The notes beneath the pieces are model-generated. The model did not search any database and was not told the origin of the DNA. It was given only the letters and a program-made list of their open reading frames with translations. A stretch of DNA of 64,000 nucleotides, taken from contig NZ_JFHR01000001.1 of NCBI RefSeq assembly GCF_000722875.1, forward strand, positions 1 to 64,000, written 5' to 3'. Positions 15,461 to 62,620 of the stretch are shown one piece after another. The DNA comes from Sphingobium chlorophenolicum. GTDB lineage: Bacteria; Pseudomonadota; Alphaproteobacteria; Sphingomonadales; Sphingomonadaceae. Made by a program: the position numbers and the translations under genes. Each line of letters starts with the position of its first letter. Within the stretch, counting starts at the first letter, position 1.

Positions 15461-15603
15461 AATCCTCCCTACGCGCAGCGTGGGGAGGGGGACCGCCGCC
15501 GAAGGCGGTGGTGGAGGGGAAATACGCAGGTCGCGCCCATTCCCCTCCACCAGCCTTCGGCCGGTCCCCCTCCCCATCTCCCGATGGGGAGGAATAGGAT
15601 AGG
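15461..15603. repeat. Modular intergenic repeat, copy 1
   Basis: About 143 bp with nested inverted arms: CCTCCCTACGCG and TGGGGAGG at the left, a central GGTGGAGGGGAA / TTCCCCTCCACC dyad, and GATGGGGAGGAATAGG at the right. Two further copies lie at 22275-22418 and 28323-28467, always between genes. Copies 1 and 3 have the same arm order. Confidence 0.9.
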
Positions 15604-22274: not shown

Positions 22275-22418
22275 CCTATCCTATTCCTCCCCATCGAAAG
22301 ATGGGGAGGGGGACCGCCGCCAAAGGCGGTGGTGGAGGGGAAATACGCAGGTCACGCCATTTCCCCTCCACCAGCCTGCGGCCGGTCCCCCTCCCCACGC
22401 TTCGCGTAGGGAGGAATT
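22275..22418. repeat. Modular intergenic repeat, copy 2 (arms exchanged)
   Basis: About 144 bp. The central block, from GGACCGCCGCC through the GGTGGAGGGGAA dyad to GGCCGGTCCCCCTCCCCA, has the same orientation as in copies 1 and 3. The outer arms are swapped and inverted: the ATAGG/GATGGGG arm is on the left and the ACGC/GTAGGGAGG arm on the right. Confidence 0.88.
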
Positions 22419-28322: not shown

Positions 28323-28467
28323 AATCCTCCCTACGCGAAGCGTGGGGAGGGGGACCGCCGCTGAAAGCGGTGGTGGAGGGGAAATTCGGAGGTCGCGCCT
28401 TTTCCCCTCCACCAGCCTTCGGCCGGTCCCCCTCCCCATCTCTCGATGGGGAGGAATAGGACAGGTC
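28323..28467. repeat. Modular intergenic repeat, copy 3
   Basis: About 145 bp with the same arm order as copy 1 (AATCCTCCCTACGCG at the left, GATGGGGAGGAATAGG at the right) and the same central GGTGGAGGGGAA / TTCCCCTCCACC dyad. It lies between two minus-strand genes. Confidence 0.9.
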
Positions 28468-49083: not shown

Positions 49084-49122
49084 CAATATGCTATGTTAAT
49101 TTGATATATCGTCGAAATCGCT

Positions 49123-49151
49123 TTGACAGTTTCGATATATGAAACTATAAC
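49123..49151 (+). promoter_or_regulatory. Promoter with operator in the spacer, TonB receptor
   Basis: TTGACA (49123-49128), exactly 17 bp, then TATAAC (49146-49151) form a strong sigma-70-like promoter. The spacer is occupied by AGTTTC-N7-GAAACT (49128-49146). A 30-bp block (49120-49149) is repeated identically before the GMC oxidoreductase gene. IclR-family proteins bind sites of this kind, and an IclR gene lies between the two copies. Confidence 0.82.
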
Positions 49152-49288
49152 CATATCAGAGTTCATCTTATGGATGGACGTCGGGCATATATTAGCGGAT
49201 AAAGGCGGCAGGGTCGCTGGGTCCGTCTGGACATATGCGCGGCCTGAAATGGTTGACGATGCAAAAAAGAGGGGAATGGGAGATGGGT

Positions 49289-51541
49289 ATGAATAAAAGG
49301 GCAAAGCTTCGTTTGCAGGGAAGGCTGGTTTTTGCGGCGGCGTCGGCTGCGGTCGCGCTGGCAGCCGCTGCATCGGCCCAGGCGCAATCGGCGGGCGCTC
49401 CGGAGGGGGCTTCGGCTCCAAAGGATGAGGGCCAGAACATCATCGTGACCGCGCAGAAGCGCGCATCGCGCCTGGCGGACGTTCCGGCTGCGATCTCGGC
49501 CTTCAGCGGCACCTATATTCAGGAGCGCGGCGTCAACGACTTCGAAGGGCTCGTGGAGCAGACGCCCGGCGTCAGCATGACGTCCGACTTCGGGGGCAGC
49601 GCGTCCAAGGTGATCTCGGTCCGCGGCCTGGGCGGCAGCGACGATTATCGTCCGAACGGCAGTTCTTCGGCGGCGCTGCATATCGATGACGTCTATCAGA
49701 CGTCGAACCTCTTCCTCTCGCTCCCCTTCTTCGACGTGGAACGCGTCGAAGTGCTCAAGGGGCCGCAGGGCACGCTCTATGGCCGCAACAGCACGGCGGG
49801 CGTGATCAACGTCCTCACCCGCGATCCTACCAAGGATCTCGATGGATATGTAACGGGCGAAATCGGCAGCTACGATCGCTATCGCATAGAGGCTGCTGTC
49901 GGAGGGGCGCTCACGCAGGATATCTCGGCTCGCATCGCCGTTCTGCGCGAATGGGGCGGCGGTTACATGGACGGCAAGGGCGCCGGCTACCTCGCCGGCA
50001 CGCGGGTCTTCGCGGGTACGCCGGTCGTCCCCGATCCGGGCGCCCGCAGCGGATGGGGTGACCGCAACATGCTGGCGTTGCGCGGCACGCTCCTCTGGAA
50101 CATGCCCACCGACGGCAAGTTGAAGCTCAAGGCCTTCATGAGCCGCGACAAGGGCGAGAACCAGATCACGGACAGCGTTCAGGGCATTGCGAACAACGGC
50201 TGGCTGGAACCGGACAACGATCCCTACACCTTCTATTCGTCCCGTTATCCGATGCGCGACATCCGGATGTACGGCGGTTCGCTTAACTATGAGCAGCCGC
50301 TGACGGACGACATCACCCTCACCACCATCCTCGGCTACCAATATGGCAAGCGCTTCGTGGAGGGCGCCACCGGCGGTCCGGCTCGCGTATTCGATTGGGA
50401 TTTCAACGACCGCGTGCGGCAGAAGTCGTTTGAAACCCGTCTGGCGGGCAATATCGGCACGATCGACTGGGTGGTCGGCCTCTATGCGATCAACGACAAG
50501 GTCAAGTTCAGGACGGATCTCGACTATACCGATGTCGGTGCGACCCGCGTTCGAACCAATTATATGCAGACGCGCAAAAGCCGCGCGGTCTTCGGTCAGG
50601 TCGATTGGCCGATCACCGACAAGTTCACTGTTACCGGCGGTCTTCGCTATACGGATGACAAGGCGCGGTTCGCCGGATCGACGATCGATCTCAATCCCTA
50701 CGGCATCACGCAGGGCGCCACCCGCTTTCCCGCAGTGCCCGTATTCTTCGACAACCGGGCGCACGACAACAACGTTTCGGGCCGCCTGACCCTGGCTTAC
50801 AAGCCGATTGAAGAGGTCAAGGTCTATGTGTCCTACGGCACCGGCTACAAGGCGGGCGGTTTCGACGGATCGTCGATCTTCAGCGCGGTCGAGGCGCTGC
50901 CGCTGAAGCCAGAAAACGTCAAGGCCTATGAAGCAGGGTTGAAGGTTTCGACCGACAGCGGCTTCTTCGCCTCGGTCGACGGCTTCTATTACGATCTGTC
51001 GGAATTGCAGGCTTTCACGATCCTTGCGCCCAATACGCCGAACATCCGCGTCAACGTCGGCAAATCGATCCTCTACGGCGTCGATTTGCAGGTCGGGGTC
51101 AAGCTGTTCGACAATGACCTGCATAGCCTTCGTCTGGAAGCGGGCGGCACGCTGCTCGACAGCCGGATCACCGAATTCCAGGGAACGGCTGCACAGGTCG
51201 CCGCGAATCTGGGCAATGATCTGCCTGCCGCGCCGCATCGCACCGCGAACGCGTCACTGGTCCACAATCTTCAGCTCGGCGGGGGGCTGGAGTTCAAGAC
51301 GACATTCGATGTTCGTTACAAGAGCGCCGAATTCAAGCGTCTGAACAACGTCGCGACCTCCAGGGTTCCGACATATGCATTGTTCGGATTGCGCGGGGAA
51401 CTGTCGTCGGATGCCGGCTGGTCGGTATACGCCTTTGTTCGCAACCTTACGGACGAAGTCTACGCGCTCGACCGCAACCTGGCGCAGCGCCTGGTTGGAT
51501 CGCCGCGGCTCTTCGGCGGCGGCGTGCGGTATGAATTCTAA
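49289..51541 (+). CDS. TonB-dependent outer-membrane receptor
   Basis: A 750-residue energised outer-membrane transporter. A signal peptide ending ASAQAQ (about 31-36) precedes the plug domain with the TonB-box-like NIIVTAQKR, VSMTSDFGGSASKVISVRGLGG and VEVLKGPQGTLYGRNSTAGVINVLTRDP. A 22-strand barrel follows, ending with GGGVRYEF and a terminal aromatic. The class is the FecA-like receptor expanded in sphingomonads for organic nutrients. ATG 49289 has GGGAG 6 nt upstream; ATG 49283 is possible. It is the first gene behind the shared operator-promoter and probably imports the substrate of the cluster. Confidence 0.93.
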   Translation: MNKRAKLRLQGRLVFAAASAAVALAAAASAQAQSAGAPEGASAPKDEGQNIIVTAQKRASRLADVPAAISAFSGTYIQERGVNDFEGLVEQTPGVSMTSDFGGSASKVISVRGLGGSDDYRPNGSSSAALHIDDVYQTSNLFLSLPFFDVERVEVLKGPQGTLYGRNSTAGVINVLTRDPTKDLDGYVTGEIGSYDRYRIEAAVGGALTQDISARIAVLREWGGGYMDGKGAGYLAGTRVFAGTPVVPDPGARSGWGDRNMLALRGTLLWNMPTDGKLKLKAFMSRDKGENQITDSVQGIANNGWLEPDNDPYTFYSSRYPMRDIRMYGGSLNYEQPLTDDITLTTILGYQYGKRFVEGATGGPARVFDWDFNDRVRQKSFETRLAGNIGTIDWVVGLYAINDKVKFRTDLDYTDVGATRVRTNYMQTRKSRAVFGQVDWPITDKFTVTGGLRYTDDKARFAGSTIDLNPYGITQGATRFPAVPVFFDNRAHDNNVSGRLTLAYKPIEEVKVYVSYGTGYKAGGFDGSSIFSAVEALPLKPENVKAYEAGLKVSTDSGFFASVDGFYYDLSELQAFTILAPNTPNIRVNVGKSILYGVDLQVGVKLFDNDLHSLRLEAGGTLLDSRITEFQGTAAQVAANLGNDLPAAPHRTANASLVHNLQLGGGLEFKTTFDVRYKSAEFKRLNNVATSRVPTYALFGLRGELSSDAGWSVYAFVRNLTDEVYALDRNLAQRLVGSPRLFGGGVRYEF

Positions 51542-51642
51542 AGCGCGCTTCGCTTCCTGGAATATGGTTTAATAATGTCTTCCAAGCCGTCCGGTATTCA
51601 TCTCCCCGGGCGGCTTGGAGGACGCCTTGGGAAGGCCGAATA

Positions 51643-52926
51643 ATGTCGATCAAACGCATATTGCTTTTGTTGCTTGCCGTTGTCGGCGCATCGGCTGCGC
51701 AGGCCGAGGACGGCAAATTCACGATCGCGGTCATTCCCGACACTCAATATTATACCGACTATCGCCATCAGACCGAAGAAGGTTTCCCGTTCGATGCGCG
51801 GGAACTCTTCTTCGATCAGATGCGCTATATCGCGGAAAATGCGGAATCGCAGGGCGGCGACATCGCCTTCGCAACCGCGCTCGGCGATGTCTGGCAACAT
51901 GCCAGCCAGCGCATGACCCCTGAATATGCTGCGAAGGGGTACAAGCATATCAAGACATTCCTGACCGAGCTTCCGCAAATTTATCCGGATTCTCGCGTGC
52001 TTACGGTTGAAATGCCGACGGCGCGCCGCGGATATCAGATGATTTCGGGGAAATTGCCTTTCTCGGTGGTGCCCGGCAATCACGATTATGACTCGAACTG
52101 GGCCGATTCACGCTGGCCGGAGGGGGCGGGGGGCTTGCCCAACGGCATGCTCGCTTATGGCGGGCTTAAGAACTGGACGTCTATATTCGGCTCGGACACG
52201 TCCTTCTTCAAGAAGAAGTCCTGGTATGTCTCCAGCTATAATGGCGGCGCGGACAGCGCGCAGGTCTTCGATGCGGGCGGATACCGTTTCCTGCATATCG
52301 GGTTTGAGATGGCGCCGTCCGACGCGGTGCTGAAATGGGCGGAGGGCGTGATCAAGCGCTATCCGGGTCTGCCCACGATCATCAGCACGCACAGCTTCCT
52401 CAACCGCGCAGGCGAAAGGCGGGAGAATCCCGCGGTCGATTTCAAGGCGGTCGATCCGGTCCATAACAATCCGCAGGATGTCTGGGACAAGTTCCTGTCG
52501 CAGCACGACCAGATTTTCCTGATGCTGAGCGGCCACCAATATGGGCAGGCCCATCGCGTTGACCTCAACAAATTCGGCCACAAGGTCTATCAGGTGTTGT
52601 CCGACTATCAGGGGCGCCGGCAGACTTTCGTGACCGCCGCGCCCGCCCGCGCCAATGAGCGCGAAACGATAGGCGACGGATGGATGCGGCTGATGCAATT
52701 CGACCTGTCGGGTCCGAAGGCCAGCGTGCAGGTGAAGACCATTTCCACTTATTATAAGAGCACGGCTTCCAAGTTGCCGACCTATTCGGCATTCTACAAG
52801 GAAAAGGAAAAGCCGACCGCGACGGATGAGGAGTTCATCGCGTCAGACGAGTTCGCGCTGGATCTCGACGATTTCCATGCCCGGTTCGCCCCCGTGCGGG
52901 GCAAGCCCAGCGGCAAGCGTCAGTAA
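51643..52926 (+). CDS. Exported calcineurin-like metallophosphoesterase
   Basis: A periplasmic phosphoesterase of 427 residues. The signal peptide spans about 1-21 (ILLLLLAVVGASAAQA). Dimetal-binding motifs are present: IPDTQYY (Asp33; the usual D-x-H is D-x-Q here), GDVWQHA (Asp82), VVPGNHDYD (Asn-His), ISTHSFLN and LSGHQYGQAH. The enzyme would act on phosphate mono- or diesters outside the cytoplasm. It is 101 bp downstream of the TonB receptor and upstream of an MFS permease, so it may process the imported compound before inner-membrane uptake. Nothing shows the real substrate. Confidence 0.88.
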   Translation: MSIKRILLLLLAVVGASAAQAEDGKFTIAVIPDTQYYTDYRHQTEEGFPFDARELFFDQMRYIAENAESQGGDIAFATALGDVWQHASQRMTPEYAAKGYKHIKTFLTELPQIYPDSRVLTVEMPTARRGYQMISGKLPFSVVPGNHDYDSNWADSRWPEGAGGLPNGMLAYGGLKNWTSIFGSDTSFFKKKSWYVSSYNGGADSAQVFDAGGYRFLHIGFEMAPSDAVLKWAEGVIKRYPGLPTIISTHSFLNRAGERRENPAVDFKAVDPVHNNPQDVWDKFLSQHDQIFLMLSGHQYGQAHRVDLNKFGHKVYQVLSDYQGRRQTFVTAAPARANERETIGDGWMRLMQFDLSGPKASVQVKTISTYYKSTASKLPTYSAFYKEKEKPTATDEEFIASDEFALDLDDFHARFAPVRGKPSGKRQ

Positions 52927-53178
52927 CCGCCATGGGGGTCGGGCGCTTCATTGTCCGGCCTGAGCTTCGATACGATGGCAAGGGTGCGGGCGAGCTGCCC
53001 CTCCGACGGCATGCTGGCGAGCCGGTCGAAGGCGCGCGCCCCGATAGTCATGGAAGGCATGTCCGCTCCCTTCATGGAAGAAAATCGGAAGCCGTAACCG
53101 AATGTGAAGCCAGTTTCGATGGACGCCGCCGGAACAAACCGCCCGCGACATCAGCGCCTATGGCGCCGGGAGAGAAAA
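52927..53178. other. Intergenic gap between phosphoesterase and MFS genes
   Basis: Short open frames exist on both strands, but none has a credible ribosome-binding site or protein-like composition. A GCCGGTCGAAGGCGCGCGCC segment resembles degraded repeat sequence. No promoter with the shared 30-bp block is present, so the MFS gene may be read through from the receptor promoter. Confidence 0.5.
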
Positions 53179-54483
53179 GTGGATCAGATTAAACAAGTTG
53201 GGACCCCTGCGCCCGCCGCCACGTCGCGGGGTGCGTCAGGCACTCGGACGATGCTCGGCGTATTGCTCGTGGTCTATATCCTCAACTTCCTCGATCGGCA
53301 GATCGTCAACATTCTGGCTGAACCCATTGCCAGGGATCTTTCGCTGTCGGATACCGAAATCGGCTTGATGACCGGGCTGGCCTTCGCGCTTTTCTATACC
53401 GTGCTGGGCATTCCCATCGCCCGCTATGCTGACCGGCCGTCGACCAATCGGGTCGGGCTGATCTCCGCCTCGCTCGTGATCTGGTCGGGGATGACCGTAT
53501 TGTGCGGCATGGCCCATAATTTCGTCCAGCTCCTGCTCGCGCGCATCGGCGTCGGGGTGGGGGAGGCCGGCTGCACCCCGGCGGCGCACTCCTTGATCAG
53601 CTCCACGGTCGAGCCGTCGAAGCGCGCGTCGGCCATCGCCTTTTACGGCCTGGGCATTCCGATCGGCACCCTGTTGGGGCTGGCCATTGGCGGTTTCGCC
53701 AGCGACCTGTGGGGCTGGCGTACCGCGTTCATGCTTGTGGGCGCTCCGGGCGTCCTGATGGCGTTGATCCTGCCTCTCATGATCCGGGATGTGCGGCAAA
53801 AGCCGACAGCCGCATCGCCAGCCCCGACAGCCGATCTGACCGTGATCGGGGCGCTGCGCGAGGTATTCGGCACCCGCACCTTCCTTCACTTGGCCATTGG
53901 CGCGTCTTTCACCGCCTTCCTCACCTATGGCAAGAATGTGTGGGCGCTGATCCTGTTTCAACGCTCGCACGGCCTCAGCGTGGGGGAAACGGGGCTGCTG
54001 CTCGGCATCGCCATCGGCGCCGCAGGGATCGTCGGCACCTGGCTTGGCGGTTATCTGGCGGACCGTTACGGCAGCGTGAACAGGCAGCATATGCTGACCA
54101 CGCCCGTGATCGGCATGGCGCTTGGCGCGCCTGTTCTCTTCCTCGGCTATTGGATCGACGAATGGCATATTGCCCTCGTGCTGATCTTCATCCCGACGGT
54201 GTTCAACGCATCCTATTATGGTCCGACCTTCGCCTGCCTGCACGGGCTCGTGCGGCCGGAGGCGCGCGCCATGGCCAGCGCCATACTTCTCTTCATGCAA
54301 AATCTTGTTGGATTGGGACTGGGCCCGCTGCTGTTCGGGATCATGTCGGAAATGCTGAAGCCAGCGGTCGGGGCGGAGAGCGTGCGCTACGTCCTTTACG
54401 GCGCCGCGTGGCTGGGCCTGATCCCCGCCTACTTCCTGTGGCGCGCCAGCCTGCGCCTGAATGCCGAACTGAAATCAGGCTGA
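53179..54483 (+). CDS. MFS transporter (spinster-like)
   Basis: An inner-membrane permease of 434 residues with 12 predicted helices. The first helix region VYILNFLDRQIVNILAEPIARDLSLSDTEIGLMTG is characteristic of the spinster-like MFS proteins common in sphingomonad catabolic clusters; RYADRPSTNRVGLISASLVIWS follows. GTG 53179 is preceded by GGGAGAG at good spacing, while the ATG at 53104 would add 25 residues with no membrane character. It probably carries the cluster substrate or its hydrolysis product into the cytoplasm. Confidence 0.9.
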   Translation: MDQIKQVGTPAPAATSRGASGTRTMLGVLLVVYILNFLDRQIVNILAEPIARDLSLSDTEIGLMTGLAFALFYTVLGIPIARYADRPSTNRVGLISASLVIWSGMTVLCGMAHNFVQLLLARIGVGVGEAGCTPAAHSLISSTVEPSKRASAIAFYGLGIPIGTLLGLAIGGFASDLWGWRTAFMLVGAPGVLMALILPLMIRDVRQKPTAASPAPTADLTVIGALREVFGTRTFLHLAIGASFTAFLTYGKNVWALILFQRSHGLSVGETGLLLGIAIGAAGIVGTWLGGYLADRYGSVNRQHMLTTPVIGMALGAPVLFLGYWIDEWHIALVLIFIPTVFNASYYGPTFACLHGLVRPEARAMASAILLFMQNLVGLGLGPLLFGIMSEMLKPAVGAESVRYVLYGAAWLGLIPAYFLWRASLRLNAELKSG

Positions 54484-54529
54484 AGCGGAATATCGGCGCC
54501 TGGGCATCCCTGCGATGGCCAGGCGCTGA

Positions 54530-55393
54530 CTATACCCCGTTGGCAAGCGCCCTGATCCGGGCGGCGAGCGACACCAGGCGCGGCCCGACATCGCCCCGCA
54601 TCTCATTTTCATTGGTTCGGAAAGCAGGCACGGCGCACACCAGCGCCAGGCATTCCCCATCCGCCGTCCGCAGCAGCGGAGCCGCCACCGCGAGAGTTTC
54701 GGCCCGCCAGGAGGAAGCGAAACAGAAGCCATCCGTCTTGCAGTCTTCCACGCCCTGGTCCGCTTCGCCCTTTCCATCGGCAAGATGGGGAGCCGTCTCC
54801 AGGGTCCGTTGATGAAGCGCGGCACGCTCCTCCGGCGACTTGAGTGACAGGATCGCGCGGCCGATGGCGGTGCGATAGAGCGGGACGGAAAATCCTATAT
54901 CGGAAATATAGTCGGGCAGCGCCGTATCGTCCGACCGCGTGACGTCCAGCATGATCGCATTCAGGTCATTCGACATGGCGATCGAAACATTGCCGCCGGC
55001 GCGCACTGCGAAATCCCGCATGAAGGGCCGCGCGATCTGGCGGATCTTGAACCGCGCCAGCAGCGGATAGGCCACCGAAAGAACCTGGGAGCCCACGCGA
55101 TAGGCTCCGCTTTCGTTGAGGCCGAGATAGCCGAGTTGAACCAGGGTGTTGGTCAGGCGCGAAACGGAGGATCGCGGCATTCCCGTCCGGGAGGAAATCT
55201 CCGAATTGCTCAGCCATGCGTCGTCCGGGCCAAAGGCCGCAAGAACCCGCAAGCCCCGTTCGAGCGTCGTGGCGAAGAAGGGGTCGGAATTCTTGGAGGA
55301 ACGCTGCCTTGAGGTCGAACCCTGCTTCTCGTCCGTCACAGATTTTCCCACTTCATTTTCCCTCGCGCCCGATTCGCACGGCGGCGTTCGCAT
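54530..55393 (-). CDS. IclR-family transcriptional regulator
   Basis: A regulator of 287 residues. A basic, polar leader of about 35 residues precedes the winged helix (FFATTLERGLRVLAAFGPDDAWLSNSEISSRTGMPRSSVSRLTNTLVQLGYL), and a C-terminal GAF-like ligand domain runs from about 110 (ARPFMRDFAVRAGGNVSIAM, GRAILSL). It is convergent with the MFS gene and divergent from the GMC gene. The two identical operator blocks flank its neighbourhood at 49128 and 55500. It most likely controls both promoters. An alternative GTG start lies about 54 bp inside. Confidence 0.9.
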   Translation of the reverse strand: MRTPPCESGARENEVGKSVTDEKQGSTSRQRSSKNSDPFFATTLERGLRVLAAFGPDDAWLSNSEISSRTGMPRSSVSRLTNTLVQLGYLGLNESGAYRVGSQVLSVAYPLLARFKIRQIARPFMRDFAVRAGGNVSIAMSNDLNAIMLDVTRSDDTALPDYISDIGFSVPLYRTAIGRAILSLKSPEERAALHQRTLETAPHLADGKGEADQGVEDCKTDGFCFASSWRAETLAVAAPLLRTADGECLALVCAVPAFRTNENEMRGDVGPRLVSLAARIRALANGV

Positions 55394-55442
55394 AGCAGTT
55401 CCGCAATTACACAGGAACTGAACCCGTCAAAAGCATCCCTTG

Positions 55443-55457
55443 TCGATGGCCCATCGA
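55443..55457. promoter_or_regulatory. 15-bp palindrome upstream of the IclR gene
   Basis: TCGATGG-C-CCATCGA is a perfect dyad 50 bp upstream of the IclR start and 38 bp before the -35 box of the GMC promoter. It differs from the AGTTTC/GAAACT operator, so it may bind another factor or serve autoregulation. Confidence 0.4.
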
Positions 55458-55494
55458 GAAAATTTAAAAGTTCCAACATACCGACGATAATGCT

Positions 55495-55523
55495 TTGACA
55501 GTTTCGATATATGAAACTATATC
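55495..55523 (+). promoter_or_regulatory. Promoter with operator in the spacer, GMC oxidoreductase
   Basis: TTGACA (55495-55500), 17 bp, TATATC (55518-55523). The operator AGTTTC-N7-GAAACT (55500-55518) fills the spacer. The 30-bp block 55492-55521 is identical to 49120-49149. It lies about 100 bp before the GMC start and faces away from the IclR gene. Confidence 0.82.
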
Positions 55524-55625: not shown

Positions 55626-57260
55626 ATGGATATGGCCCATAATGATGTCGGGAATTCGTACGACTATGTCGTGATCGGCGCTGGATCGTCAGGATGCGTC
55701 GTGGCCAATCGGCTCAGCGAAGACGGAACGCATTCGGTCCTGCTGATCGAAGCTGGCGGCCCGGACAATCTCTTCTGGATGCGCGCCCCGCTGGGAACGG
55801 GGCAGATGCTTCGCCGCACCGACGTGATCTGGCCCTATGAGACGGAGGGCGTGCCCGCGCTCAACGGCCGAAAGCTCAGATGGCCGCGAGGGAAGGTCGT
55901 CGGCGGTTCCAGTTCCGTCAATGGCACCATCTTCATTCGCGGCCTGCGCGAGGAATATGATCGCTGGCGGGAAATGGGCAATATCGGCTGGGGCTATGAC
56001 GACGTCCTGCCTTTCTTCAAGAAATTCGAGAATTTCAAGGATGGAGACCCGCGCTACAGGGGGAAGGGCGGTCCGATTTCGGTGGAACGCCTCCGGCTGA
56101 ATTTGCCGGTCACCAGCGCCTTTCTCGACGCCTGCGCGCAGGCCGGCATTCCGGGCAATGCCGATTATAACGGCGCGTCTATCGAGGGTGCGAGTCCGCT
56201 GCAGTTCAACACCCGCTATGGACGGAGGCAAAGCGCCGCCGTCGGATATCTGTCTTCCGCGGCGAAGCGCAAGAATCTGCATGTCCTGGCCAACACGCGG
56301 GTCAAGAAGATCGACGTCGTGGATGGAGCCGCCAGCGGTGTGGTCTTGCAGAACGCCGCCGGGGAACGGACCGTCCGCGCCAATCGCGAGATCATCATCA
56401 GCGCCGGGGCGATCGGGTCGCCGCAATTGCTGGAGCTTTCCGGGATTGGCAACGCGTTTATCCTCAAAAATGCCGGGCTATCCGTCGTCCACCATTTGCC
56501 CGGCGTCGGCGAGAATCTGATCGATCACCTTCAGACCCGCATCAGCCTGAAGGCGCAGAATACCGCGGGCTTGAACGAATTGGTCCGAAATTACCTGTTC
56601 CGCATGAAAGTGGGGGCGGAGTGGCTTTTCCTGGGCCGGGGGCTGATGTCGACACCGCTCGCGTCGGCGCATGCCATCGTGCGGTCCCGTCCGGATGCTC
56701 CCATGCCCGATCTGAAGCTGCAGCTTCACCATTTCAGCGGTCAGGACCGGATGGCCTATAGCAAGGATCTTGGGATCGACCCTCATCCGGGTCTGACGAT
56801 AGGCATCGTCCAATTGTCGCCTCGGTCGCGGGGGCATCTCCACATATCGTCGCCCGACGCGAACGTCGCACCCCTCATCTATCCCAACCAGTTCGAAGAT
56901 GAGGAGGATGTCCGCGTCCTGACGGCGGGGATCAGGATGGCGCGGACCATAGCGGCGCAGGATGCGCTTTCGAAATTCGTCGTGACGGAATTGCGACCGG
57001 GCGCGGCGGCTTCCTCCAATGACGAGATAAAGGAATATATCCGGCAGAGCGGGCAGACCTCCTACCATCCGATCGGCACTTGCAAGATGGGACGCGACGA
57101 CTGGGCGGTGGTCGACGATCAACTGCGGGTGCGGGGGGTCGACAGGCTTCGGGTCGTGGACGCTTCGATCATGCCCACCATGCCGTCGTCCAATACCAAC
57201 GCCGCCGCCTTGATGATCGGGGAAAAGGGGGCCGAACTCATCCGCCAGGCGGCGGCGTGA
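55626..57260 (+). CDS. GMC-family FAD oxidoreductase (alcohol/choline dehydrogenase type)
   Basis: A flavoprotein of 544 residues that would oxidise a primary alcohol to an aldehyde. The FAD motif is DYVVIGAGSSGCVVANRLSED (about 12-32). The GMC signatures follow: WPRGKVVGGSSSVNGTIFIRG, the second signature GAIGSPQLLELSGIG, and the catalytic His in SYHPIGTCKMG with Asn in MPSSNTNAAALMIGEKGAELI. It resembles PEG dehydrogenase and choline dehydrogenase in layout. ATG 55626 is chosen over the GTG at 55560 because the sequence before it lacks family character. It is first behind the second shared promoter, with the toroid protein and aldehyde dehydrogenase downstream. Confidence 0.92.
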   Translation: MDMAHNDVGNSYDYVVIGAGSSGCVVANRLSEDGTHSVLLIEAGGPDNLFWMRAPLGTGQMLRRTDVIWPYETEGVPALNGRKLRWPRGKVVGGSSSVNGTIFIRGLREEYDRWREMGNIGWGYDDVLPFFKKFENFKDGDPRYRGKGGPISVERLRLNLPVTSAFLDACAQAGIPGNADYNGASIEGASPLQFNTRYGRRQSAAVGYLSSAAKRKNLHVLANTRVKKIDVVDGAASGVVLQNAAGERTVRANREIIISAGAIGSPQLLELSGIGNAFILKNAGLSVVHHLPGVGENLIDHLQTRISLKAQNTAGLNELVRNYLFRMKVGAEWLFLGRGLMSTPLASAHAIVRSRPDAPMPDLKLQLHHFSGQDRMAYSKDLGIDPHPGLTIGIVQLSPRSRGHLHISSPDANVAPLIYPNQFEDEEDVRVLTAGIRMARTIAAQDALSKFVVTELRPGAAASSNDEIKEYIRQSGQTSYHPIGTCKMGRDDWAVVDDQLRVRGVDRLRVVDASIMPTMPSSNTNAAALMIGEKGAELIRQAAA

Positions 57261-57302: not shown

Positions 57303-58274
57303 TTGGCAGAGATCGTTCAGCGTTGCGAGGAAGCAATATCGCTCGGCCTGAAATGGCTTGCCGGACGCGTATCCGACAAAGGCGAGCTTGAAGGCAGCGA
57401 GTCCATATTGTTCGGCTATTACAAGGCTCTCCTGACCTTCACCGCTACCGGCCGCTATCTGGAGGCGGGACGCGTCGCGCACAAGATCAAGCGGGACTTC
57501 TACAAGGACGGCCAGTTCGGCGGCGAACAATATCCCGCCGCGACGGTCGGGCCGATCTACCGGGATTCATGGCTGACCTGGGGAGCGCATCTCGCCGGAC
57601 GCTACGACATGTCCGTTCCGGCCGCGAACGCGATTCGCAGCCAGCTTTGCGGGATCACGGGCGGCGTCCTTGTCGACGGCCCGGGACGGATCATCGACGC
57701 CGGCCTGACATGCTGCGCGCTGACGGCCCTTCTCGCGGCGGGGAAGAGTGATGAGGTGATGAAAGGAGCCGAACTGGTTCGCGCCCTTGTCGAAGATCAG
57801 CCTGAACCCGAAGAGGCATTTTATTTCCGCTGGTCGCCTGAGACCGGCTATATAAAACCGGCGGTGGGCGAAGACGGAAAAGGCTGGACGGTCCGGCGGA
57901 CAGACAGCGGGCAGATTTACTGGTATATCGGATATCTGCTTGCGCTGATGGCCCAGATGAACCTGCTGACCGGCGAGCGCAAATGGATCAATGCGGCGGA
58001 GAAGTTGCTGGCGTTCGTGAACGGCTGCCTTCCCGAAATATTCGGATCGACCTCCAACGGCAAGATTGCCTGGGGCTGCGCCGAGTTGTTCGCGGTAACG
58101 GGGGACGAAAGGTTCAGGGATGTCGCCGCGCGCATGACGGAATGGATATGCGATGTGCAGGCGGCGGATGGCCGCTGGTACAGATCGCCCGACCAGTCGA
58201 TTCCTGTCGCGTTCGACGCTACATTTGAACGCGTTTTCTACCTCAGTCGGATTGCGCGGGCTCTCCAGCCGTAA
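57303..58274 (+). CDS. Predicted alpha/alpha-toroid protein, function unknown
   Basis: I do not recognise a named family. The 323-residue protein begins at TTG 57303 behind GGAGAGG. It is almost wholly helical, with repeated helix pairs of similar size: GYYKALLTFTATGRYLEAGRVAHKI, WLTWGAHLAGRYDMSVPAANAI, DAGLTCCALTALLAAGKSDEV, YWYIGYLLALMAQMNLLTGERKWINAAEKLL, WGCAELFAVTGDERFRDVAARM. Tryptophan, tyrosine and acidic residues at helix starts suggest a six-hairpin glycosidase, epimerase or terpenoid-cyclase-like toroid. There is no signal peptide. Set between a GMC oxidoreductase and an aldehyde dehydrogenase, it probably acts on the pathway intermediate. The fold claim is by eye. Confidence 0.6.
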   Translation: MAEIVQRCEEAISLGLKWLAGRVSDKGELEGSESILFGYYKALLTFTATGRYLEAGRVAHKIKRDFYKDGQFGGEQYPAATVGPIYRDSWLTWGAHLAGRYDMSVPAANAIRSQLCGITGGVLVDGPGRIIDAGLTCCALTALLAAGKSDEVMKGAELVRALVEDQPEPEEAFYFRWSPETGYIKPAVGEDGKGWTVRRTDSGQIYWYIGYLLALMAQMNLLTGERKWINAAEKLLAFVNGCLPEIFGSTSNGKIAWGCAELFAVTGDERFRDVAARMTEWICDVQAADGRWYRSPDQSIPVAFDATFERVFYLSRIARALQP

Positions 58275-58316
58275 ATAAGAGAAACAGGATCCGCGGTGCG
58301 CCGGGGATGTGGGAGA

Positions 58317-59759
58317 ATGGCCGTGATCAAACTCAACGACGTCTATCCGCTCTATCTCAACAACAGGGCGGTGCAGCCGAACGCCGACCTGGCGGTGACC
58401 GACAAATTCACCGGGGAAGTCGCTTTCCGCACCGCGCTCGCGACGCCGGAGATCATCTCGGAGGCCATCGCCGGGGCCGTGCGCGCTGCCGAGCCGATGG
58501 CGCGGCTGGCGAGCTTCGAACGACGCGACGTGCTCACCCATTGCGTCACGCGCTTTCAGGAGCGCTTCGACGAACTCGCCTATGCCTTGTGCGTGGAGGC
58601 AGGCAAACCCATCGCCGACAGCGAGGGAGAGGTGGGTCGCCTGATCGACACCTTCCGCATCGCCGCCGAGGAAGCGACCCGCAACTATGGCGAGGTCCAG
58701 CCGCTCGACATTTCAGCCCGCGCAAAGGGCTATATGGGGATGTGGAAGCGGGTGCCGATCGGCCCGTGCAGCTTCATCTCGCCCTTCAATTTCCCCCTCA
58801 ACCTCGCCGCGCACAAGATCGCCCCGGCCATCGCGATGGGCTGCCCCTTCGTGATGAAGCCCGCGTCGCTGACGCCTCTGGGCGCGATCATCATGGGGGA
58901 GGTTCTTGCCGAATGCGACATCCTGCCGGAGGGCGCGTTCAGCATCCTGCCCGCATCGCGCGCGGGCGCGGATCTGTTCACCACGGACGATCGGCTGAAG
59001 CTGCTCAGCTTCACGGGTTCGCCGGGCGTCGGCTGGGATTTGAAGGCGCGGGCGGGCAAGAAGAAGGTCGTGCTCGAACTGGGCGGCAATGCGGCGGTCG
59101 TGGTCGACAAGGACGCCGACCTCGACCATGCGCTCGCGCGGATTATCTTCGGCGGCTATTATCAGTCGGGACAAAGCTGCATCCATGTGCAGCGTGTGAT
59201 CATCCATGAGGATATTTACGACCGGTTCCGCGACATGCTCGCCGCGAAGGTCAAGGCGCTGAAATCAGGCGATCCCAAGCTTCGCGACACGTTCATCGGC
59301 CCCATGATCTCGGTCAATGAGGCCCAGCGGCTGAAAGGCTGGATCGACGATGCGGTCGCCGCGGGCGCGACCTTGCTCGCAGGGGGCGGATGCGAAGGCA
59401 ATATGCTGGAAGCCGCCTTGCTCGAAAACGTCCCCAGCGGCACCGACCTGGTGCAGGAGGAGGCTTTCGGCCCGGTGGTCATGCTGTCGAAATTCGCCGA
59501 CTGGAAGGCTGCGCTGGCCGAGGTCAACGACAGCAAGTTCGGACTTCAGGCCGGACTGTTCACGCGTGACATCCACAAGGTGCTGGATGCGTGGGATCAT
59601 CTCGACGTGGGCGGCATCGTCGTCAACGACGTGTCGAGCTACCGCGTCGACAACATGCCCTATGGCGGGGTCAAGGACAGCGGGCTCGGTCGCGAAGGCG
59701 TACGCTTCGCCATGGAGGATATGAGCGAAATCCGGAACCTGGTGATCCGCCGGGCCTGA
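58317..59759 (+). CDS. NAD(P)-dependent aldehyde dehydrogenase
   Basis: An aldehyde dehydrogenase of 480 residues. Catalytic Cys288 lies in QSGQSCIHVQR, general-base Glu254 in VVLELGGNAA, and Asn158 in FISPFNFPLNLA, all at the family spacing. It would oxidise the aldehyde made by the GMC enzyme to an acid. The start is uncertain: ATG 58317 is adjacent to GGGAG (too close), GTG 58323 has better spacing, and GTG 58296 has AGGA 6 nt upstream. It follows the toroid gene by about 40 bp and ends the operon before a repeat. Confidence 0.92.
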   Translation: MAVIKLNDVYPLYLNNRAVQPNADLAVTDKFTGEVAFRTALATPEIISEAIAGAVRAAEPMARLASFERRDVLTHCVTRFQERFDELAYALCVEAGKPIADSEGEVGRLIDTFRIAAEEATRNYGEVQPLDISARAKGYMGMWKRVPIGPCSFISPFNFPLNLAAHKIAPAIAMGCPFVMKPASLTPLGAIIMGEVLAECDILPEGAFSILPASRAGADLFTTDDRLKLLSFTGSPGVGWDLKARAGKKKVVLELGGNAAVVVDKDADLDHALARIIFGGYYQSGQSCIHVQRVIIHEDIYDRFRDMLAAKVKALKSGDPKLRDTFIGPMISVNEAQRLKGWIDDAVAAGATLLAGGGCEGNMLEAALLENVPSGTDLVQEEAFGPVVMLSKFADWKAALAEVNDSKFGLQAGLFTRDIHKVLDAWDHLDVGGIVVNDVSSYRVDNMPYGGVKDSGLGREGVRFAMEDMSEIRNLVIRRA

Positions 59760-59959: not shown

Positions 59960-60595
59960 CTATATGTCGAAATCCGCTTCGGTAAGAGCGCGAACCTGAT
60001 CGGGATCGACGCCGGGCGCGCATTCGATCAGGCGGAAGCGGGCGCTTCGGTCAGCCCGCGCAAAGACGGCCAGATCGGTTATCAGCATGTCGACGACCGC
60101 CGAACCCGTCAGGGGAAGGGTGCAGCTCTTGCGGAACTTGGGCGTTCCGTCCCGCGAGACATGGTCCATCAGCACGATGATGCGCCGGACGCCCGCGACG
60201 AGATCCATCGCGCCGCCCATGCCCTTCACCATCTTTCCGGGGATCATCCAGTTGGCGATGTCGCCATTTTCCGCGACCTCCATCGCGCCCAGGACCGACA
60301 GGTCGATATGACCGCCCCGGATCATGCCGAAACTGTCGGCTGAAGACACATAGCTGGTGCCGGCGAGTTCGGTGATCGTCTCCTTCCCGGCGTTGATGAT
60401 GTCCGCGTCGACATGCGCGGCGTCGGGATAGGGACCCAGGCCGAGCATGCCGTTCTCCGACTGGAGCGTCACGTCCATGCCTTCGGGAATATTGTCCGCC
60501 ACCAGCGTTGGAATGCCGATGCCGAGATTGACGTAGAAACCGTCGCGCAGTTCGCGCGCGGCGCGGGCGGCCATGTCGTTCCGGGTCCAGGGCAT
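59960..60595 (-). CDS. scoB: 3-oxoacid CoA-transferase, subunit B
   Basis: The beta subunit of a family I CoA-transferase, 211 residues. The catalytic glutamate is Glu47 in [13 protein letters not shown], and [13 protein letters not shown] and [15 protein letters not shown]-like segments follow the succinyl-CoA:3-ketoacid transferase pattern. It works with the A subunit encoded just upstream (one base between frames) to move CoA from succinyl-CoA to an acid such as acetoacetate or 3-oxoadipate. Which acid is used here is unknown. The neighbourhood suggests a role in activating the acid end product of the cluster. Confidence 0.93.
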
Positions 60596-60596
60596 G

Positions 60597-61301
60597 TCAA
60601 ACCTCTCCGCGCACGATGCGCTTTTCTATGCGCTTCTCATTTCGTTCCGCCAATATCATCCGTTGCACGAAGATACTGGGGGTATGAACATGGTCGGGAT
60701 CGATCGCGCCCGCCGGGAGCAACTCCTCGACCTCGGCGACCGTGACGCGGCTGGATGTCGCCACCATCGGGTTGAAGTTGCGCGCCGTCTTCCGATAGAC
60801 GAGATTGCCCTTTTCGTCGCCCCGCCATGCCTTGACGATGGCAAGGTCGGCCGTCAGCCCGGTTTCCAATATATAGCGCTCGCCGCCGAAGATCTTTTCT
60901 TCCTTGCCGTCGGCCACGATCGTTCCGACGCCCGTCCGGGTGTAAAATCCGGCGATGCCCGCGCCGCCTGCGCGCAGCCGTTCCGCCAGCGTACCCTGCG
61001 GATTGAATTCCAATTCGAGGACGCCGGTTAGATATTGTCGCTCAAACTCCTTATTCTCCCCGACATAGGAGGAGATCATCTTGCGCACCTGCCGGCTCTG
61101 CAACAGCAGGCCCAGGCCGAAATCGTCCACCCCTGCATTGTTCGAGATGATGGTGAGATCCTTGACGCCGCTTCGGCGGATCTCGTCGATCAGCGTCTCC
61201 GGAATGCCGCAAAGGCCGAAGCCCCCGGCCGCGATGGTCATCCCGTCGAAAAGCAGGCCCGAAAGGGCATCGCGGGCCGTGTCGTGGAGTTTTCTCGCCA
61301 T
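60597..61301 (-). CDS. scoA: 3-oxoacid CoA-transferase, subunit A
   Basis: The alpha subunit of a family I CoA-transferase, 234 residues. [26 protein letters not shown] holds the oxyanion-hole glycine motif. [39 protein letters not shown] and [12 protein letters not shown] are standard. ATG 61301 (MARKLHDTA) agrees with family N-termini but has no good ribosome-binding site. Translation may be coupled to a 39-codon ORF that ends 10 bp upstream and has its own strong site. It is divergent from the GntR regulator. Confidence 0.93.
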
Positions 61302-61311
61302 GTCGTTGGAC

Positions 61312-61431
61312 TCACATGCTGCTGAGGAAGTGGCCGCCATCGGCGGAGGAGATGTCTAGAGCAACCGATCGGCATGCGTCGACAGCGAGGGCGATCACGG
61401 TCCTGCCGCCAGGGTTCAGCAAATTGTCCAT
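61312..61431 (-). CDS. 39-residue leader or remnant ORF upstream of scoA
   Basis: ATG 61431 is preceded by GGAGAG at 5-nt spacing and the frame stops 10 bp before scoA. The product starts MDNLLNPGGRTVIALAVDAC and ends SSADGGHFLSSM. The two ends look like the N-terminus and C-terminus of a short-chain dehydrogenase with the middle missing, so it may be a deletion remnant that survives because it feeds ribosomes to scoA. A true small protein cannot be excluded. Confidence 0.45.
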   Translation of the reverse strand: MDNLLNPGGRTVIALAVDACRSVALDISSADGGHFLSSM

Positions 61432-61462
61432 AGGCACTCTCCGTGGAAAAGTGTATGGAACA

Positions 61463-61479
61463 TGATTGTAGAACAATCA
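61463..61479. promoter_or_regulatory. 17-bp palindrome upstream of gntR, candidate operator
   Basis: TGATTGT-AGA-ACAATCA is a perfect dyad 12 bp before the GntR start at 61491 and 32 bp from the start of the divergent 39-codon ORF. TTGT-n-ACAA dyads are the usual target type of FadR/FCD-class GntR regulators, so control of both directions is likely. Confidence 0.65.
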
Positions 61480-61490
61480 AGAGGGCTAAT

Positions 61491-62171
61491 ATGGAGGCCG
61501 GGTTGGAATTCGAGCCGGCGGGCGCAGCGCGGAAGGTGGTCCTGGGCATCTTGTCGGGCCTGGACGAGCGGCAACTCGTTCCGGGACAGCGGCTTGCGGA
61601 AACGGAACTTGCTTTGCGCTATGATGTCGGCCGGAACGCGGTGCGGGAGGCTATGCAGCACCTGTCGGTGCGCGGCATCATCGAACTGGAGGCAAATCGT
61701 TCGCCCTCGATCCGGAAACTTGATCTGGCCGAGAGCATGGAGGTGCTCGACGTTGCCGAGGCGATGACCGCGCTCGCTGCCCGCACCGCGGCCGGCCGAT
61801 ATGAGGAGCGCCTGCACGGCAAGCTGCTGCGCGATGTTCTGCAGCGGCTGGATGTCGCAGCGGCCGAGCGGGAGGAGGGGGCCTTCAACGCGGCGCGGCG
61901 TCAATTCTACCGCGCTCTGCTCCGGATCGGCGACAATCGCGAGTTGCGCCGTCTCTTTCCATCCGTGGGCATGCACATCATCCACGTGCAATATTCGGCG
62001 TCCGACCTGCAACAGGTCCGGCATCGCGACTATGCCGACATGGCGGCCGCCATCATGAAGAAGGATGCGGGACCGGCGGAGGAGAGCGCGCGGCGCCACG
62101 TCGACAATGTCCGCACCGCCATCGCCGATTGGCATGCCCGGCGGAGCAGCAGAGTCATGGGGAGGCGCTGA
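61491..62171 (+). CDS. GntR-family regulator (FadR/FCD class)
   Basis: A 226-residue regulator. The winged helix spans about 8-75 (VVLGILSGLDERQLVPGQRLAETELALRYDVGRNAVREAMQHLSVRGIIEL), and a helical FCD-type sensor domain follows (FNAARRQFYRALLRIGDNRELRRLF). ATG 61491 follows GAGGG and lies just after a 17-bp palindrome; an earlier ATG at 61443 would run through that operator. It is divergent from the CoA-transferase genes and 2 bp ahead of a thioesterase gene. The effector is probably a short organic acid or acyl-CoA, by family precedent. Confidence 0.88.
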   Translation: MEAGLEFEPAGAARKVVLGILSGLDERQLVPGQRLAETELALRYDVGRNAVREAMQHLSVRGIIELEANRSPSIRKLDLAESMEVLDVAEAMTALAARTAAGRYEERLHGKLLRDVLQRLDVAAAEREEGAFNAARRQFYRALLRIGDNRELRRLFPSVGMHIIHVQYSASDLQQVRHRDYADMAAAIMKKDAGPAEESARRHVDNVRTAIADWHARRSSRVMGRR

Positions 62172-62173
62172 CC

Positions 62174-62620
62174 GTGCCCAGACCGGAAAGCTGGCGGCTC
62201 GACGCCACCAATTACCCCGTGCGCGGCGATTTCCAGACGCGTTTCCAGGATCTGGACGTCAACGGCCATATCAACAATGTCTCCTTCGCAGCGCTGTTCG
62301 AGGGCGGCCGCGTCATGTTGAACCGGCAGGTGGACGCCTTGACGAACCGGCCGTCGAACGAGCGCACGATGGTCGCCGACCTTCACATATGTTATCTGGG
62401 CGAGGGCAATTTCCCCGATCCTGTCGAGATCACGTCGGGTTTTGGCCGCCTTGGCGGCACAAGCTGGACGATCTGTCAGGCGATGTTCCAAAATGGCCGC
62501 GCCATCGCGACCTGCGATACCGTCATCGTGTGCCGCACGGATGATCAGGCGAAGCCGCTGCGCCCCGAACTGATAGCCGAACTGACCGCAAGGATGGTGA
62601 AGCAGTCGCGCAATGAATAA
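62174..62620 (+). CDS. Hotdog-fold acyl-CoA thioesterase (4HBT-like)
   Basis: A 148-residue hotdog protein. The active-site segment is FQDLDVNGHINNVSFAALFEGGR (about 22-44), the D-x-x-G-H-x-N-N form of FadM/YbgC-type thioesterases. VADLHICYLGEGNFPDPVEITSGF is the second typical strand region. GTG 62174 has GGGGAGG at suitable spacing and starts 2 bp after the GntR stop, so both are coexpressed. It may release CoA from a dead-end acyl-CoA of the same catabolic route. Confidence 0.88.
   Translation: MPRPESWRLDATNYPVRGDFQTRFQDLDVNGHINNVSFAALFEGGRVMLNRQVDALTNRPSNERTMVADLHICYLGEGNFPDPVEITSGFGRLGGTSWTICQAMFQNGRAIATCDTVIVCRTDDQAKPLRPELIAELTARMVKQSRNE

Follow-up and report, generated by a model that had tools for sequence, protein, structure and literature searches.

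In Sphingobium chlorophenolicum, two identical 30-bp blocks lie in front of a TonB-dependent receptor gene and a GMC oxidoreductase gene, with a gene for an IclR-family regulator located between them. This report, which concerns the first 64,000 nucleotides of contig NZ_JFHR01000001.1 (forward strand; hereafter, the window), presents sequence-based evidence that the two blocks are quite probably promoters that each contain an operator for this regulator, which would repress both transcription units.

Two identical promoter blocks

The plus-strand sequence at 49120-49149 is the same as that at 55492-55521 over exactly 30 bp, and the match breaks off at both borders; by comparison, the longest repeat in 50 order-3 Markov sequences of window length was 15-20 bp. 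Copy 1 consists of a TTGACA (49123-49128), a palindrome (GTTTCGATATATGAAAC, 49129-49145) and the start of the -10 hexamer TATAAC (49146-49151), and copy 2 is built in the same way, with TTGACA at 55495-55500, the palindrome at 55501-55517 and the start of the -10 hexamer TATATC at 55518-55523. The -10 boxes are not identical between the copies, as the identical block covers only their first four bases; TATAAC agrees with TATAAT at five of six positions and TATATC at four. The distance from TTGACA to the -10 box is 17 bp in both copies, and GTTTC-N7-GAAAC occupies that spacer exactly. An earlier note on this DNA had described a 30-bp identity with these same borders and, in each copy, a TTGACA and a TATA-type -10 box 17 bp apart, both of which are borne out. 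It had also described AGTTTC-N7-GAAACT as filling the spacer, which is true of the shorter palindrome only, the outer bases of the longer one (49128-49146 and 55500-55518) overlapping the last base of the -35 box and the first base of the -10 box. A promoter scan missed both promoters, its rule requiring a T at the final -10 position. Estimated from the -10 boxes, transcription likely starts near 49158 and 55530, and the operator centres are 146 bp (copy 1) and 117 bp (copy 2) 5' of the likely gene starts.

Within the entire 4.79-Mb genome, AGTTTC-N7-GAAACT has two exact sites, both of them here, against approximately 0.06 expected from the base composition of the window; the genome scan that had been proposed as a way of listing the regulon thus points to these two promoters alone. 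No further site with up to two mismatches occurs in the window (an equally relaxed search of shuffled sequence yields 0.69 matches per shuffle), and the 27-bp core with up to three mismatches has no genomic match beyond the two copies. A chance origin of the repeat is ruled out by the exact 30-bp identity, the Markov controls and the genome-wide uniqueness, and a multi-copy repeat is ruled out by the lack of a third genomic copy at up to three mismatches. Across 397 sampled genomes of the family, the 27-bp pattern with two mismatches gave two weak matches (G233 and G297) besides those of the window itself. The block is not the longest repeat in the window, since exact repeats of greater or similar length are found elsewhere in it (41 bp at 15540/28402 and 31 bp at 15502/22323), and the segments 15477-15580, 22302-22353 and 28339-28442 have exact repeats of 20-41 bp in common.

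The IclR regulator and its predicted operator

The gene at 54530-55351 on the minus strand encodes a protein with an N-terminal HTH_IclR domain (PF09339, 60 bits against a cut-off of 22) and a C-terminal IclR_C domain (PF01614, 45.7 bits against a cut-off of 24), in agreement with the earlier placement of an IclR-family gene between the two copies and divergent from the second. Translation probably, although not certainly, begins at the GTG at 55351 rather than at the ATG at 55393, to which the open frame reaches; the GTG is preferred because GAGGG stands 8 bp before it and because the close relative described below has an indel just 5' of that codon. The centre of the copy 2 operator lies 158 bp away from this likely start. 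Near the start, at 55397-55419, is AGTTCC-N11-GGAACT, which looked like an autoregulatory site and whose left half is altered in the close relative.

In a comparison of 4,809 predicted sites of IclR-family proteins, one subgroup (GTT-11-AAC) had the consensus GTTYCRYW3RYGRAAC (PMC8222616). Both copies of the palindrome here, and both in the close relative, agree with it at 16 of 17 positions, and nowhere else in the window is there a site within two mismatches. Three further genomic sites with up to one mismatch, on C6, C16 and C26, are probably due to chance, since a reversed control also yields two. None of the listed matches to the IclR helix-turn-helix model is near them (none is on C6 or C16, and the nearest on C26 is approximately 39 kb off), and the C26 site falls within an open reading frame. 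Two other motif classes were tried at the two promoters and rejected: neither the IclR group 2 motif TGRAACAN1-2TGTTYCA nor the even-spaced group 1 motif has a match there at up to three mismatches.

Conservation in a close relative

Among 94 genomes of the genus, the IclR gene is present at 95-100 % identity in only two, that of S. chlorophenolicum and G049, while four others have only relatives of 32-35 % identity at the cut-off used. The two operator blocks occur in the same two genomes and in no others. A third genome (G514) has one operator site with two mismatches; its 32 % IclR relative is on a different contig, and the list of open reading frames for the 3-kb stretch with the site, checked by eye, showed no IclR gene, receptor gene or GMC gene. 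In G049, both units have the same gene order, and the proteins are 87-95 % identical. The block of copy 1 keeps 29 of its 30 bases in G049 as opposed to 54 % outside the block, the best other stretch keeping 28, and the block of copy 2 keeps 27 of 30 as opposed to 74 %. The single change within a palindrome, A to G at 55514, is permitted by the consensus, and the -10 hexamers of G049 are TATAAA and TATTAT.

A weaker likeness, A.ATA.CG.CGA.A, is found 5' of both -35 boxes (49103-49119 and 55475-55491, approximately 17 bp), in G049 as well. An additional half-site and an upstream promoter element are both conceivable; the partly shared stretch does not show the spacing of published three-box sites.

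Sites upstream of distant IclR relatives

The survey of more distant IclR relatives covered 49 loci, i.e. G049, seven other loci of the genus, 31 further loci and 10 of 97 plasmid records, and searched the 350 bp 5' of each IclR relative, with 904 mostly coding segments from the same loci as background. The core palindrome with up to one mismatch was found at 10 of the 49 loci versus 8 of the 904 background segments, and with up to two mismatches at 15 versus 54 (6 %). When sixty mirror-permuted consensuses were run on those 49 segments, the mean came to 2.3 and the highest value to 7. Presence of the palindrome tracks relatedness, as it is seen at 13 of 24 loci whose IclR protein is at least 30 % identical (12 of 23 without G049) and at 2 of 25 below that level. 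Two loci (L092 and L093) have two such sites in the stretch that separates the IclR gene from its divergent neighbour. At a further locus (L095:9304-9342, in G031), two IclR-class palindromes lie 20 bp apart, with an IclR gene on one side and the divergent gene of an aldehyde dehydrogenase relative on the other, a layout that matches the tandem sites, 18-22 bp apart, reported for 94 groups of IclR proteins (PMC8222616).

Relatives of the phosphoesterase gene of the cluster also occur on plasmids. Of 37 matching records, five were examined, and the trio of phosphoesterase, MFS transporter and receptor is present in one of them (L056). No IclR gene is listed in the four annotated records, the fifth (L055) carrying no annotation, and only L056 has a two-mismatch site, which falls inside the receptor gene.

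The gene cluster and its predicted transcription units

Unit 1, on the plus strand, begins with the TonB-dependent receptor gene (49283-51541; Pfam plug and barrel domains, 90 % identical in G049), which is followed by a gene for a metallophosphoesterase-like protein (51643-52926, plus strand) whose relatives are annotated as metallophosphoesterase or phosphatase and which has no match in Pfam or NCBIfam. The MFS transporter gene (53179-54483, plus strand; Pfam MFS_1, 88 % identical in G049) is likely part of unit 1, as its last gene. The 252-bp gap 5' of it contains no palindrome of the IclR class; approximately 150 of these 252 bp cannot be aligned with G049, while the last part before the gene can, and the gene may have a promoter of its own. 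The IclR protein, whose gene comes next, is 95 % identical in G049. Unit 2, likewise on the plus strand, comprises genes for the GMC oxidoreductase (55626-57260; Pfam GMC_oxred_N and GMC_oxred_C, 92 % identical in G049), an AprG-like protein (57303-58274; E 2e-17 to solved AprG chains, 87 % identical in G049) and an aldehyde dehydrogenase (58296-59759, with a start that may be further in; Pfam Aldedh, 95 % identical in G049). With their genes on the same strand and mostly close together, each unit may well be a single transcript.

The GMC protein scores below the NCBIfam cut-off for choline dehydrogenase (542.8 versus 605 bits), and its best match among solved structures is a chloramphenicol-inactivating oxidoreductase. 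AprG itself has been termed an aldolase of apramycin synthesis (PMC11033246), and its relative here is a rare one that sits within a breakdown-type operon. In the 397 sampled family genomes, a search at E 1e-25 found the AprG-like protein in its own genome only; G049, which carries the 87 % identical copy, is outside that sample.

Genes for a CoA-transferase, a GntR/FCD regulator and a thioesterase (59960-62620) lie 3' of the cluster here and 5' of the receptor gene in G049. The same parts in another order suggest an accessory, rearranged island. Just 5' of the GntR/FCD gene (start near 61491) is a perfect palindrome, GATTGT-AGA-ACAATC (61464-61478), which is unchanged in G049; a relaxed search of the window for it gave three matches versus 1.44 expected, of which only the exact one is noteworthy. 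It is a candidate GntR operator for the divergent CoA-transferase genes.

Which regulator may act on the blocks, and how

The sequence, position and conservation of the blocks, their motif class and their co-occurrence with the IclR gene are direct observations, and the case for the IclR protein as their repressor draws its strength from the exact repeat and its location in two promoters, not from the consensus alone. Several points tell against that case. The palindrome has one off-consensus base and an asymmetric centre, and the consensus by itself is weak, with five genomic sites at up to one mismatch versus two for the reversed control. The -10 box of copy 2 matches TATAAT at just the four positions given above. 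The region 5' of the GMC gene is well conserved in general, so that 62 of 245 30-bp segments are no less conserved than the block. Among the distant relatives, 34 of 49 lack a site at up to two mismatches, including 11 of the 24 that are at least 30 % identical, and the 49 loci are not independent of one another.

A different regulator is unlikely to be the one for which the blocks serve as operators; the foremost candidate would be the GntR/FCD protein (61491-62171). In both genomes the cluster is accompanied by the GntR, CoA-transferase and thioesterase genes, albeit at opposite ends, and a regulator encoded elsewhere would also be compatible with the sequence, the IclR helix-turn-helix model having 15 genomic matches, which include the present gene and several weak ones. 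However, the GntR gene has its own different palindrome, conserved before its start in G049, and no palindrome of the IclR class at up to three mismatches precedes it, whereas the block fits an IclR consensus. The GntR protein was judged the less likely binder on these grounds; that its palindrome is unlike the block argues for a division of labour, with GntR acting on the CoA-transferase genes and IclR on the two units.

Some IclR-family proteins work as activators or two-way switches, and members of either sign are known. That the IclR protein binds the blocks and acts in one of these ways is, nonetheless, less likely still, as the site lies between the -35 and -10 boxes with a normal 17-bp spacer and a bound protein should exclude polymerase. 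Least likely of all is that the identity reflects a strong promoter copied recently, with a palindrome in the spacer that serves no regulator: the weak likeness that runs on for approximately 17 bp 5' of the block fits such copying, but both copies stand in the same places in G049, where the unit proteins differ by 5-13 %, which argues that the copies are not recent, and the 17-bp spacers are kept there save one base despite that divergence. Moreover, promoter strength alone would presumably not need such a spacer sequence. A MerR-type switch, in which the palindrome sits in an over-long spacer of 19-20 bp, is ruled out by the 17-bp spacer at both copies.

Proposed mechanism and significance

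A protein bound in the gap between the -35 and -10 boxes, which the site fills, would be expected to shut polymerase out, and the most economical model is therefore repression that an inducer relieves; besides binding itself, we infer repression rather than activation, the existence of an effector and how far the transcripts extend. In the absence of inducer, a dimer or tetramer of the IclR protein would sit on GTTTC-N7-GAAAC between the -35 and -10 boxes and keep RNA polymerase off both promoters. A pathway substrate or intermediate would then bind the C-terminal domain, and the IclR protein would be released, permitting joint expression of an uptake set (receptor, phosphoesterase-like protein and MFS transporter) and an oxidation set (GMC oxidoreductase, AprG-like protein and aldehyde dehydrogenase). 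Thus, the cell probably switches on the import of a compound at the same time as its oxidation. The earlier note had predicted one regulon that joins outer-membrane uptake, including the phosphoesterase and perhaps the MFS transporter, with cytoplasmic oxidation; comparison lends support to the link between receptor, phosphoesterase and oxidation, while unit 2 turns out to be larger than was claimed, with the AprG-like protein and aldehyde dehydrogenase in addition to the GMC oxidoreductase. A bolder version, which must be considered a long shot, has one IclR tetramer bridging the operators, 6.37 kb apart, and looping out the uptake half so that both promoters open at once; it further posits an undescribed pathway in which an imported compound passes through the GMC oxidoreductase, an AprG-like enzyme engaged in breakdown and not antibiotic synthesis, and the aldehyde dehydrogenase.

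If the IclR protein acts in this manner, two transcription units and a regulator gene would become one small two-promoter regulon that can be tested. Tying an outer-membrane receptor to a cytoplasmic oxidation pathway would also narrow the search for the cargo of the receptor, and the blocks would offer a concrete candidate operator for a group of IclR proteins among whose relatives similar sites recur.

Comparison with known systems

The predicted operators resemble the GTT-11-AAC operators of IclR group 1 (PMC8222616) in being 17-bp palindromes, in their 16 of 17 agreement, and in their location near the gene of the regulator and 5' of catabolic genes. They differ from the sites of that study, most of which are at -20 to -80, in having centres that precede the likely gene starts by 146 and 117 bp and in their one off-consensus base. 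The best NCBIfam match of the IclR protein is the PcaR/PcaU/PobR family (TIGR02431), to which it cannot be assigned, its 108.9 bits being far below the cut-off of 284.75; the sites of PcaR, PcaU and PobR are, according to the site table of the same study, of the same general type as the block.

The nearest parallel in function comes from Sphingobium sp. SHPJ-2, where PheR is a proven IclR-family repressor that acts at a catabolic promoter for phenanthrene breakdown, and where transcript data show TonB-dependent receptors to rise when PheR is lost (PMC13273656). As with PheR, a sphingomonad IclR-family regulator would here be tied to a catabolic promoter and to a TonB-dependent receptor. However, the PheR motif given in that report, GCAACG, is absent from both strands of the 30-bp block, and the PheR footprint spans -21 to +23, whereas the operator predicted here lies between -35 and -10. 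Furthermore, the effect of PheR on receptors is known from transcript data, whereas here the receptor promoter itself carries a putative operator. In the open-licence literature, subscription papers being mostly outside the search, the PheR paper and one general regulon survey (PMC5343134) came up, and no paper was found on a receptor gene and a GMC gene that share an IclR site. That one IclR protein can join uptake and breakdown is already published for PheR (PMC13273656), and the present case is a new example of an already known kind of bacterial control.

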